From assembly GCA_001798135.1 (NCBI GenBank), contig MGRJ01000020.1, forward strand, positions 1 to 64,000: DNA of 64,000 nucleotides. The letters run 5' to 3'. Both the position numbers and the translations under genes were made by a program. The stretch is from Deltaproteobacteria bacterium RIFCSPHIGHO2_02_FULL_40_28 (lineage in GTDB: Bacteria; UBA10199; 2-12-FULL-40-28). Below the pieces are notes generated by a model. That model was not told the origin of the DNA. It was given only the letters and a program-made list of their open reading frames with translations, and did not search any database. Position 1 is the stretch's first letter. Each line of letters starts with the position of its first letter. Shown here in pieces: positions 7,262 to 60,429 of the stretch.

Positions 7262-7443
7262 TGTCATTCCCATGAAAATGGGAATCCATCTTTATTTGTC
7301 CCCCTTTGTAAGGGGGACTACAGGGGGTAGATTTTAAATTCATCTCTACCTCCCCTTACCCCTCCTTACAAAGGAGGGGAATAAGATGGATCCCTGCTTT
7401 TCCGCCAGAGGCGGACCCGCCTTTGGCGGGCGCCGGGATGACA
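7262..7443. repeat. Nested composite palindrome (outer shell plus inner palindrome)
   Basis: Outer arms start with TGTCATTCCC and end with GGGATGACA, and they close on CCATCTT and AAGATGG. Inside the apex lies a second palindrome built from CCCCCTTTGTAAGGGGG and CCCCTCCTTACAAAGGAGGGG around an AT-rich loop. The same composite occurs at 51779-51954 with the inner part in the opposite orientation. It fills the gap between two minor pilin genes. Confidence 0.85.
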
Positions 7444-7474
7444 AATGATGTGGGATGACAAAAAATTTTATTTC

Positions 7475-8446: not shown

Positions 8447-8553
8447 GACCCAGCAGGGGATTCCTTTCGATCCCGAGGACTGTCTGACGAGCCCTGAGCA
8501 AAGTCGAAGGGCGAGGAGTTCCGCAGGCGCCGGAAGGAATCCCCTGCTGGGTC
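8447..8553. repeat. Cruciform element, copy A (shared core, locus-specific arms)
   Basis: Two perfectly complementary 20-nt arms (8447-8466 and 8534-8553, beginning GACCCAGCAGG) enclose a 67-nt core. The core contains CGAGGACTGTCTGACGAGCC and GGGCGAGGAGTTCCGCAGG. The core recurs at 21721-21777 and, inverted, at 43420-43484, but the arms there are unrelated in sequence. Confidence 0.9.
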
Positions 8554-19582: not shown

Positions 19583-20311
19583 TTAAATGGCCATGTCTTT
19601 CATCACATTCATCACTTCTTCATGAATGCGATTAATAGCGGTTTCATTTGTTTCTCCTTTTTTCTTCACGGGTTTAATGGGTTTGCCAATATAGTGCATC
19701 AGCTTTTTAGGCAAGGGCAGCAAGCCAATCCCAAAAAAAAGAGGTAACGAAATCCGTGTGGATTCTAACATTTTAATTCGCCATTTGAGTAAAAATCTTA
19801 AATTATAGTACACCTCATTAATGCCATCACAGTAACTGGGAACAATGGGAGTGTTGGTTTCTAGGGCTAATTTAATAAAACCTTTTCTCCGTTCCCAGGG
19901 GATACGTTTCATGCCGGGATAACAAACCAAGCCTTCGTAAATTCCACCAGGGGCAAGCACAACGCAATTTTTTTCTTTCAAAAGATTTTTAGCATTGCGA
20001 TCATTGGCGTTAACGGTTCCACTTTTTAAGAACAGTTGACGTATCCAGGGAATAGAAAATAAAAATCCTGCACCCAAACCTCGTGGGTAAATATCCCGGT
20101 TTTCTACCAAATGTTTGGCTAACAAAAATCCATGGTAGGGAATAATTCCATGGTTCATAATCACCAGGGAAGCAAGGCCTTTAGGAATATTTTCGAGGCC
20201 AATCGTTTCGTAACGAAAGTAACGATCGAGTAGGGTAAACCAACGCATGGTTTTTCGAACGAATTGAGGATCTAGATGGTGCAGTTCGTTTCGAATATGG
20301 GTTGCTTGCAT
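19583..20311 (-). CDS. Acyltransferase of the PlsC / diacylglycerol acyltransferase-like family
   Basis: Protein of 242 residues. Block I is VIMNHGIIPYHG (His54), followed by a substrate block (FLKSGTVNANDRNAKNLLKEKNCVVLAPGGIYEG) and the proline block (KLALETNTPIVPSY). This is the layout of membrane-associated acyl-CoA or acyl-ACP glycerol acyltransferases. The canonical HX4D is altered: the residue four after His54+1 is Tyr59 and not Asp. The TMEM68/DGAT-like branch can also diverge here. Its start codon lies only 24 bp from that of radA, which is read the other way. Confidence 0.75.
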   Translation of the reverse strand: MQATHIRNELHHLDPQFVRKTMRWFTLLDRYFRYETIGLENIPKGLASLVIMNHGIIPYHGFLLAKHLVENRDIYPRGLGAGFLFSIPWIRQLFLKSGTVNANDRNAKNLLKEKNCVVLAPGGIYEGLVCYPGMKRIPWERRKGFIKLALETNTPIVPSYCDGINEVYYNLRFLLKWRIKMLESTRISLPLFFGIGLLPLPKKLMHYIGKPIKPVKKKGETNETAINRIHEEVMNVMKDMAI

Positions 20312-20320
20312 AAGAGTTTA

Positions 20321-20328
20321 ATTATAAA
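20321..20328. promoter_or_regulatory. Shared symmetrical -10 box of a divergent promoter pair
   Basis: ATTATAAA reads as TATAAT on the minus strand (20326-20321), 9 nt before the acyltransferase ATG and 17 nt from a TTGGGT -35 (20349-20344). On the plus strand it reads TATAAA (20323-20328), 7 nt before the radA ATG. Both transcripts would start at or within a few bases of their start codons. Confidence 0.5.
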
Positions 20329-20335
20329 GGATATT

Positions 20336-21697
20336 ATGGTCAAACCCAAGGCAAAATCGGTGTATCGTTGCCAGGACTGTGGTTTTTCTTCTGCTAAGTG
20401 GTTGGGGCGTTGTCCCGAATGTGGTCAGTGGAATAGTTTGGTAGAAGAGGCTTTGAAGTCGGTTCGTGAGGAAGAGGGGCTTTTTTTTACTCTCACAAGT
20501 ACCGAAGCCACCTCACTTCCTGCCATCGAATCCGATTATGCCCAGCGTCTTCCTACTCAAATTTCGGAGTTAGATCGTGTTTTGGGTGGGGGCTTAGTCC
20601 CTGGTTCCATGGTGCTTTTAGGGGGGGATCCAGGCATTGGGAAATCCACTCTCATTCTTCAAACTCTTAATCAAATGGCAAGTGTGGGGCGTACAGTTTT
20701 GTATGCCACAGGGGAGGAGTCTAAGCAGCAAATTCGTATTCGAGCCGATCGCTTAGGCATTTCAAGTCAAATTTGGATTTTAGCTGAAAATTCTCTCGAA
20801 AAAATTGTTGAACAGGTTCAAAAAATAAAACCCGATGTTTTAGTGGTTGATTCTATTCAAACCGTTTATTTGGAAAATTTAGAATCGGCACCTGGATCTG
20901 TTTCACAAGTGCGAGAGTGCGCCGGCAAACTTTTATTTTTAGCTAAGTCTACAGGCCTTGTTACCATTGTGATTGGGCATGTAACCAAAGAAGGAGGCAT
21001 TGCAGGGCCTAAACTTTTAGAGCATTTAGTTGATTGTGTTTTATATTTTGAAGGAGATGTCCACCAGCATTATCGGGTACTTCGCACCATTAAAAATCGT
21101 TATGGGTCTACCCAGGAAATTGGTGTTTTTGAAATGAATGAAAAGGGCTTAGAAGTTGTACAAAACCCATCTTCCCTTTTTTTGTCTGGAAAAAATACCT
21201 CTGCTCCTGGATCTGCCATCACAGCTACTCTCGAAGGGGGGCGATCATTTTTAGTAGAAATTCAAGCCCTGGTTTCTTTTTCATCTTTGACTAATCCCAG
21301 GCGAACAACTCAGGGGGTAGACCCTAATCGAGTGGCCATTTTGATTGCTGTTTTAGAAAAGGTGGTGGGGCTTAATCTTTACAATCAGGATGTGTATGTT
21401 AATGCTGCAGGTGGTTTTAGGGTGGTTGAACCAGCTGCTGATTTAGCGATTTTAGCAGCTCTGGTTTCTAGCGTTAAAAATAAAATTTTGGGTAAAAATT
21501 TGGTTTTTTTAGGGGAAATAGCCCTTTCAGGTGAGATAAGATCAGTTCAAGGGCTTGATTTACGACTTTTGGAGGCAAAAAAGGTGGGTTTTACCCATTT
21601 TGTGCTGCCTAAACACCTTAAAAACAGCCCTTCCTTGCCTGGAACCGAAGTTTTGTTTGTGGAGCGCGTAGCCGATTTATTGGACAAGTTGTTTTAA
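20336..21697 (+). CDS. radA: DNA repair protein RadA
   Basis: RecA-related ATPase of 453 residues that promotes branch migration in recombination. It has an N-terminal zinc finger (Cys12, Cys15, Cys26, Cys29 in YRCQDCG...GRCPECG), Walker A GGDPGIGKST at 96-105, the RadA-specific KNRYGSTQEIG motif near 260 and a C-terminal Lon-protease-like domain (YVNAAGGFRVVEPAADLAI). The ATG at 20336 is chosen because the zinc finger follows at the usual distance. AAAGGA just before it could act as ribosome binding site if the message is not leaderless. Confidence 0.96.
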   Translation: MVKPKAKSVYRCQDCGFSSAKWLGRCPECGQWNSLVEEALKSVREEEGLFFTLTSTEATSLPAIESDYAQRLPTQISELDRVLGGGLVPGSMVLLGGDPGIGKSTLILQTLNQMASVGRTVLYATGEESKQQIRIRADRLGISSQIWILAENSLEKIVEQVQKIKPDVLVVDSIQTVYLENLESAPGSVSQVRECAGKLLFLAKSTGLVTIVIGHVTKEGGIAGPKLLEHLVDCVLYFEGDVHQHYRVLRTIKNRYGSTQEIGVFEMNEKGLEVVQNPSSLFLSGKNTSAPGSAITATLEGGRSFLVEIQALVSFSSLTNPRRTTQGVDPNRVAILIAVLEKVVGLNLYNQDVYVNAAGGFRVVEPAADLAILAALVSSVKNKILGKNLVFLGEIALSGEIRSVQGLDLRLLEAKKVGFTHFVLPKHLKNSPSLPGTEVLFVERVADLLDKLF

Positions 21698-21701
21698 AGC
21701 G

Positions 21702-21796
21702 GAGCCTTGGGAGGGTTCCTGGAGGAGACGAGGACTGTTTGACGAGCCTTAGGGCGAGGAGTTCCGCAGGCGACGCAAGGAACCCTCCCAAGGCTC
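21702..21796. repeat. Cruciform element, copy B (shared core, locus-specific arms)
   Basis: Perfect 19-nt arms (21702-21720 and 21778-21796, GAGCCTTGGG...CCCAAGGCTC) flank a 57-nt core. The core matches copies A and C except that the inner hairpin is 12 nt shorter (GACGAGCCTTAGGGCGAGG). Confidence 0.9.
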
Positions 21797-43401: not shown

Positions 43402-43502
43402 CAGGGGGGAGTATTTCTTTCGTCCCTGCGGAACTCCTCGCCCTTCGACTTTGCTCAGGGCTCGTCAGACAGTCCTCGCTCCTCAAGAAACACTCCCCCC
43501 TG
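43402..43502. repeat. Cruciform element, copy C (shared core, inverted orientation)
   Basis: Arms 43402-43419 and 43485-43502 pair over 18 bp with one G-T-type mismatch (CAGGGGGGAG...CTCCCCCCTG). The core (43420-43484) is the reverse complement of copy A and is identical to it over about 54 nt. Confidence 0.9.
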
Positions 43503-51745: not shown

Positions 51746-51778
51746 AGGCACCTCTATTTACTCAAATTTTTTTCTATT

Positions 51779-51954
51779 TGTCATTCCCGCGAAGGCGGGG
51801 GTCCATCTTGGTTCCCCTCCTTTGTAAGGAGGGGTTAGGGGAGGTAGAGAGTTTAGTAAGACTCTACCCCCTCCAACTCCCCCTTACAAAGGGGGAGAGT
51901 ACAGATGGATCCCTGCCGGAGTTTACCCCTGCGAAGGCAGGGGCAGGGATGACA
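51779..51954. repeat. Nested composite palindrome, second full copy
   Basis: Outer shell TGTCATTCCCGCGAAGGCGGGGG...GCAGGGATGACA with an inner palindrome (CCCCTCCTTTGTAAGGAGGGG and CTCCCCCTTACAAAGGGGGAG) at its apex. It is the reverse orientation of the inner unit at 7262-7443. It fills most of the 290-bp gap after yajQ. Confidence 0.85.
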
Positions 51955-52642: not shown

Positions 52643-52987
52643 ATTATCTTCTAATTATCGTCGAAAGTCTACAATTGCAATACAATTTATATCCTTTTTA
52701 GTAGCTTTGATATGGTGCATATTAGTTTAAAATATTTTTAATAAAGCCTTATTTATCAATAGGTTAAATTATTTTTTACAGATCTTTCTAAGGATTAACA
52801 GTCTGCGATAGGAACCCATCTTAATTCCCCTCCTTTGTCCCACAGGGACTTCGGAGGGGTAAGGGGAGGTAGAGAGTTTTGTATACACCAGCTAAAAGTG
52901 AAAATACTATACTACTAATTAAAACTTTCCCTTTTCACAAAATCTCTTTTCGTTTAAAATACTTAAGTTCAATCAAGAGGAGGAAAA
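52643..52987. other. 345-bp gene-free stretch
   Basis: AT-rich sequence without a supported gene. It holds a half-copy of the composite palindrome at 52814-52880, and the DcrB gene's ribosome binding site (GAGGAGG) at its right end. A clear promoter was not found. Confidence 0.6.
52814..52880. repeat. Half copy of the CCCCTCCTTTG palindrome with an inserted loop
   Basis: It matches the left half of the copy at 51779-51954 (CCATCTT..., CCCCTCCTTTGT, GGAGGGG, AGGGGAGGTAGAGAG), but the hairpin loop carries an extra CCCACAGGGACTTC. It lies in the same orientation as the copy 1 kb to the left. Confidence 0.7.
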
Positions 52988-60329: not shown

Positions 60330-60360
60330 TCTATGTGACTTTGTTATTCCCTGCATCATT

Positions 60361-60429
60361 TGTCATCCCCGCGCAGGCGGGGATCCATCTTTGAATTTAA
60401 GATGGATTCCCACCTTCGTGGGAATGACA
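60361..60429. repeat. Outer-shell palindrome without inner insert
   Basis: TGTCATCCCCGCGCAGGCGGG...GTGGGAATGACA closing on CCATCTT-TGAATTT-AAGATGG. It is the same shell as at 7262 and 51779 but with an empty apex. Confidence 0.85.

Follow-up and report, generated by a model that had tools for sequence, protein, structure and literature searches.

The palindromic elements of Rickettsia and Wolbachia (RPE) are scattered units of about 100–150 bp, some of which lie in frame in conserved genes, and different groups of them occur at the same loci (PMC3767692, PMC10969869). The element studied here, which was compared with RPE by description, is likewise a dispersed palindrome of about 100–150 bp, and in an Eggerthellaceae genome it lies in frame in pre-existing genes. 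However, RPE are reported from Rickettsia and Wolbachia, whereas the core of the present element occurs in at least ten phyla and its arms differ between copies. MITEs are small, non-autonomous, hairpin-forming elements in or near operons (PMC10969869); the present element differs from them in having no fixed terminal inverted repeat, its ends being the variable part. The betaproteobacterial repeat element (BRE) is about 90 bp long, GC-rich, chromosomal and mostly intergenic, with some copies in genes; one copy region is transcribed, and tandem arrays exist in places (PMC3110155). Compared by description and not by sequence, BRE resembles our element in size, context and betaproteobacterial hosts, whereas tandem arrays are a feature of BRE. 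The REP, BIME and REPIN sequences that go with RAYT are also extragenic, intercistronic palindromes with inverted pairs, but the element here is longer, its core is common across phyla and no constant transposase accompanies it. Integron attC sites are comparable in being single-strand hairpins whose stems vary and whose shape is what is recognised, but no gene-cassette array or linked gene family was seen beside the present element.

In short, the element represents a structural class of palindromic repeats that is both new and widespread; its behaviour, again compared by description, is closest to that of RPE. It is probably a non-autonomous mobile repeat, dispersed and palindromic in the manner of RPE, that is set by its structure and not by its terminal sequence and whose stems are rapidly replaced.

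Conserved core and fold

Three copies of the element (A, B and C; Table 1) exist in the window, the 64-kb stretch of DNA that was analysed as a whole. All three carry the shared core that had been predicted for them, and comparison of inverted repeats confirmed that the 54-nt core of A is the same as that of C; by chance, 0.01–0.03 matches to the core halves are expected within the window. Pairing of the arms is perfect in A (20 bp) and B (18 bp) and amounts to 17 of 18 positions in C, where the supposed mismatch, read on the strand of the element itself, proves to be a G-U wobble. This odd pair, read as A-C on the plus strand, is shared by 24 of 36 copies (alignment columns 15/95). Folded on their own strands against their own shuffles, A, B and C gave z values of -4.3 to -6.6. 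The tips differ, with a short loop in B and CCCTGAGCAAAGTCGAAGGG in A and C. Further dispersed palindromic families, of the TGTCATTCCC...GGGAATCC and CCCCTCCTTTGTAAGGAGGGG types and in part adjoining, were recognised in the window at 7262-7450, 51778-51850, 52853-52883 and 60354-60429.

Table 1. Positions of the parts of the three copies in the window
Feature	Sequence	Position	Strand	Remark
Copy A, 5' arm	GACCCAGCAGGGGATTCCTT	8447..8466	+	perfect pairing with 8534-8553, 20 bp
Copy A, whole core		8474..8527	+	
Copy A, core 5' strand	CGAGGACTGTCTGACGAGCC	8474..8493	+	invariant in aligned copies except the Y position
Copy A, apical part (variable hairpin tip)		8494..8508	+	
Copy A, core 3' strand	GGGCGAGGAGTTCCGCAGG	8509..8527	+	
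Copy A, 3' arm	AAGGAATCCCCTGCTGGGTC	8534..8553	+	
Copy B, 5' arm	GAGCCTTGGGAGGGTTCC	21702..21719	+	follows closely on the stop codon that ends a RadA-like gene (20276-21697)
Copy B, core		21729..21770	+	
Copy B, 3' arm	GGAACCCTCCCAAGGCTC	21779..21796	+	followed by a T tract
Copy C, 3' arm (minus-strand sense)		43402..43419	-	in the commonest inner-arm subfamily
Copy C, core		43425..43478	-	identical to the core of A
Copy C, 5' arm (minus-strand sense)		43485..43502	-	one G-U pair with the other arm

Search of the full genome (2.16 Mb in 31 contigs) with the 3' half of the core, allowing at most 3 mismatches, gave 38 matches, as against none with the reversed pattern, and a covariance model built on ten copies recognised about 40 places, of which A, B and C are three. 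One decayed copy (L341, 1731-1775) has lost the 3' half of the core and still has short, paired outer arms. An alignment of 29 copies has 37 invariant columns, and almost all of these fall in the core strands CGAGGACTGTYTGACGAGCC and GGCGAGGAGTTCCGCAG. The core has the layout CGAGGACTGTYTGA-hairpin-GAGTTCCGCAG. From the outside inward, the hairpin begins with an outer helix of at least 20 pairs, which in many copies is followed by an internal loop of 3x3 or similar size. A short helix comes next, then a 2x3 loop in which GA is opposite GCA, and then the GGA/UCC helix. In the large internal loop, CUGUYUGA is opposite GAGU, and the tip beyond it varies in length. Near the tip, tandem G-A pairs are likely in this genome (GACGAG facing CGAGGA, read by eye and not taken from the output of a tool).

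In 36 copies, 94% of the structure cells are paired, as against 74% in shuffles, and 231 cells are changed on both sides, as against 54 (none of 500 shuffles was as high); because the copies are related by descent, neither these covariation counts nor the mismatch counts below represent independent events. Changes on both sides were found at 24 base pairs of the structure, and in the outer (long) helix 97% of the cells are paired and 19 of the 20 pairs vary on both sides. Mismatches of the arms, scored on the element's own strand, are G-T in 44 cases and A-C in 10. This excess, together with the common G-U pair, points to the folding of a single strand. The fixed part would be the internal-loop motif CGAGGACUGUYUGA facing GAGUUCCGCAG, with tandem G-A pairs likely by the tip, and the helices on either side could have nearly any sequence, provided that pairing holds.

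Arm variation and in-frame copies

The arms had been described as unrelated between sites. They are indeed paired yet different from site to site, but C belongs to a large inner-arm subfamily and B stands near a second one. The largest subfamily, that of C, is (C)AGGGGGAGTGTTTCTTGAGGA...GACGAAAGAAATACTCCCCC(TG), given also as AGTGTTTCTTGAGGA...GACGAAAGAAATACT; the second, near which B stands, is GGGGTGTTCCTGGAGG...CCGGAAGGAATACCCC, given also as GTTCCTGGAGG.... An inner-arm subfamily is common to most copies, and divergence rises outward to the outer arm, the most variable part. The arms seemed unrelated because three copies were too few and A, B and C come from different parts of the spread. 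Since most copies fall into shared inner-arm subfamilies, much of the arm divergence in the window's genome has the appearance of compensatory change in a single lineage. A survey of 0.8 Mb of sequence of this genome, in part overlapping, showed neither of the two main shells (1 and 2) without the core, one half copy excepted. A similar state is seen in a Patescibacterium with 22 copies (G069), in which the inner arm is conserved and the outer arm varies with compensation.

In G068, a genome of the Eggerthellaceae, the copies have a common interior (about 0.6–0.8 identity in the 31 nt on each side of the core) and the outer arms are private, with a between-copy identity of 0.29 and a complementarity of 0.80 within a copy versus 0.43 across copies. 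Perfect outer arms extend over 28–37 bp in G068 and over 46 bp in a relative. Those G068 arms that were used as queries had no further copy, either in G068 itself or in the relatives covered, and thus these arms were not copied from elsewhere in that genome. Purely compensatory drift was dropped as an explanation for the Eggerthellaceae, whose outer arms are private and perfect. The second process put forward in the original prediction, the copying of flanks in inverted orientation, gains indirect support from these private, perfect arms of 28–46 bp.

Four of the 16 copies in G068 are in frame inside genes, namely those for CobU, a Mur ligase (MurD by context), an ABC transporter and a U32 peptidase, and the protein domains continue on both sides. 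In relatives, the CobU linker has no element and the MurD linkers comprise only a few residues. At the same place in MurD, the element is present in four species, in both orientations and with an arm pair that is unrelated from one species to the next, and two species carry other palindromes, bare and in frame. In the cobU palindrome of a relative, read by eye, the two strands of the core have changed places and are closed at the other end, which agrees with recognition of the internal loop as the unit. In cobU the left arm may be native to the gene, as its first ~12 nt resemble the empty site; this would fit flank copying rather than insertion of a whole unit there. Genome G078 (L409) contains dozens of copies of another perfect-hairpin repeat with arms of about 29 bp, one of them in frame in murD, and a different in-frame repeat with LRSEAAQSSLRLSEAS-like peptides lies earlier in a murD gene at L435.

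Genomic placement, empty sites and nesting

The copies in the window's genome are intergenic, with a median of 15 nt from the arm end to the neighbouring stop codon and none inside a gene among the copies analysed. The neighbouring genes are tandem, convergent or divergent pairs. Neither an orientation preference relative to genes (13 versus 8 in tandem gene pairs) nor a replication-strand bias (18 of 33 relative to GC skew) was recognised. Operon junctions such as rnc-era, pilB-pilC, thl-crt and icd-mdh (gene names from reading of the translations) are filled by copies, and those within operons end about 10–30 nt before the following start codon. The element is tolerated close after stop codons, within operons and, in frame, within genes. 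The T tract after B and the A and T tracts at hairpin S (see below) recall intrinsic terminators whose core is common by descent; however, a T tract follows the stem in few copies only, and the copies inside operons or in frame within genes render this explanation scarcely credible.

A structured non-coding or cis-acting RNA motif, whose copies would be kept as signals for mRNA processing, stability or protein binding while the arms drift with compensation, agrees with the invariant internal loops, the covarying helices, the one-strand mismatches that are G-U rather than A-C and the position close behind stop codons. We nevertheless consider it rather unlikely, because gene orientation shows no bias, copies exist between divergent genes and in frame in coding sequence, presence is patchy among relatives, and the private, perfect arms of 28–46 bp exceed the need of a stem.

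The empty sites, compared in distant relatives and not in strains, are mostly without hairpins. At rnc-era and pilB-pilC, the genes of many relatives overlap or lie a few nucleotides apart, with no element and no hairpin, and at murD and cobU many relatives that lack the element likewise have no hairpin and almost no spacer. Therefore, at these loci the whole unit was gained with its arms. Other relatives carry different hairpin repeats at rnc-era or pilB-pilC, and these two junctions are hot spots for several kinds of palindrome.

Nesting at hairpin tips does happen, as two cases demonstrate. The outer hairpin S (GGTCCTGTCAYTG...TGCCACC), a second palindromic family in the window's genome, bears the core at its apex three times, in either orientation (L007, L011 and L012), and other apices without the core three times (L315, L316 and L340). 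The latter two have the same interior, and their outermost bases differ yet stay complementary. In two relatives of one family, belonging to two genera, the same outer hairpin at rnc-era is found with and without an unrelated apical insert of ~90 nt (L254 and L255). In both cases, loss of the apex would look the same as its gain.

The main model of the original prediction, in which a small mobile core inserts at the tip of existing hairpins and the arms are those of the host hairpin, draws real but limited support from these two cases and from the bare in-frame palindromes at the same murD linker in two relatives. Insertion at an apex is supported in one case; as a general model it is quite improbable: orthologous sites that lack the element mostly offer neither a hairpin nor room for one, most arms in the window's genome fall into shared subfamilies, whose two main shells are not seen coreless in the 0.8 Mb surveyed apart from one half copy, and the bare murD hairpin of G078, tried as a pair of empty arms, was rejected because it belongs to another dispersed repeat family.

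Distribution and proposed mode of spread

Species-representative genomes were scanned with GGACTGTYTGA-N(4-34)-GAGTTCCGCAG, and at least 117 stretches matched this core pattern, as against about two expected by chance (our own estimate). Bacteria of at least ten phyla have the same core, although metagenome assemblies make up much of the data. The hosts among the matches listed include Gallionellaceae, Dechloromonas, Marinobacterium, Nitrospira, Myxococcota, Lachnospiraceae, Eggerthellaceae, Barnesiella, Gastranaerophilales, Spirochaetes, Chloroflexi and several Patescibacteria. CGA directly precedes the core in 128 of 129 copies, though it is absent from the search pattern; the tips of these 129 copies are hairpins of 89 different sequences, and the outer arms pair better than shuffled arms. 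The 12 genomes checked have 1 to 22 copies each and no match to the reversed control pattern. In the class to which the window's genome belongs, 6 of 46 genomes score, some with variant cores, so that presence is patchy among relatives. The core pattern was found in two contigs of a viral collection, and an Ilyobacter megaplasmid carries a variant core; the plasmid, phage and E. coli collections gave only partial matches, none near full length, to one 36-nt core variant. In Betaproteobacteria, inverted pairs of copies lie about 200 bp apart. A GGTTACTTTTCTTT-type sequence follows the element in Betaproteobacteria and the Ilyobacter megaplasmid (L142, L146, L149, L197 and L250), with recurrent spurious ORFs (KKVTKKKATP...), and the GGTTACTTTCTTT tail in these hosts had no match in the literature.

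That no named family fits, as first supposed, was borne out for the RNA families and papers searched: no Rfam family matched at the gathering or a relaxed threshold, and a literature search by core DNA or RNA and by encoded peptide gave nothing relevant. No gene family recurs beside the elements. The idea of a gene cassette, suggested by copy pairs that flank orphan genes in Betaproteobacteria and ordinary genes here, was abandoned for lack of recurring cargo. Genes of the Y1_Tnp family are common in relatives of the window's genome, and this, with the palindromic, extragenic, inversely paired copies of Betaproteobacteria, recalls REP/BIME-type elements moved by a RAYT (Y1 HUH) transposase. 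Such an origin is very improbable, however, since 6 of the 12 core-carrying genomes, including those with 18 and 21 copies, have no Y1_Tnp match (assemblies may be incomplete) and the Y1_Tnp loci that were read in the window's genome have no intact copy beside them; association with RAYT as a general rule was therefore rejected. The only copy found at these loci is a decayed one, which lies beside an RlmE/FtsJ-like gene and about 830 nt from the Y1 ORF.

Mobility and the origin of the arms we infer from the features described above; among the copies compared, no sign of transposition, excision or a target duplication came to light. The element, of the RPE-like mobile kind that we prefer, would be or would have been mobile and non-autonomous, spreading as a folding single strand that is recognised via the internal loop by a factor that need not be a Y1/RAYT transposase in every host; an element recognised and spread in this way would thereby work like the Rickettsia palindromic elements. 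An invariant core in every copy and old-looking arms, on the other hand, would also fit a function selected at each site. The arms could be renewed by compensatory change, and private, perfect arms could stem from copying in inverted orientation, by snap-back at the hairpin or by template switching there, or from nesting in another palindrome. The data favour a mixture of compensation, template-switch copying and nesting, inverted copying being most likely where the arms are long, perfect and private. More tentatively, and with somewhat more doubt than confidence, the element may be seen as a pan-bacterial mobile structural motif, in which a single internal loop is the target of selection or mobility and is surrounded by a newly written, perfect inverted repeat; a process templated by the hairpin (snap-back copying or strand switching) would thereby give every copy private arms, even in reading frames.

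Dispersed palindromes are usually seen as lineage-specific and known by their ends, whereas here the ends are variable and the middle is common across phyla, which points to a very widely spread recognising factor. The element can be found by its structure, and it is a system, provided by nature, in which the origin of perfect inverted repeats can be studied, as can the reasons for which in-frame palindromes are tolerated by genes.
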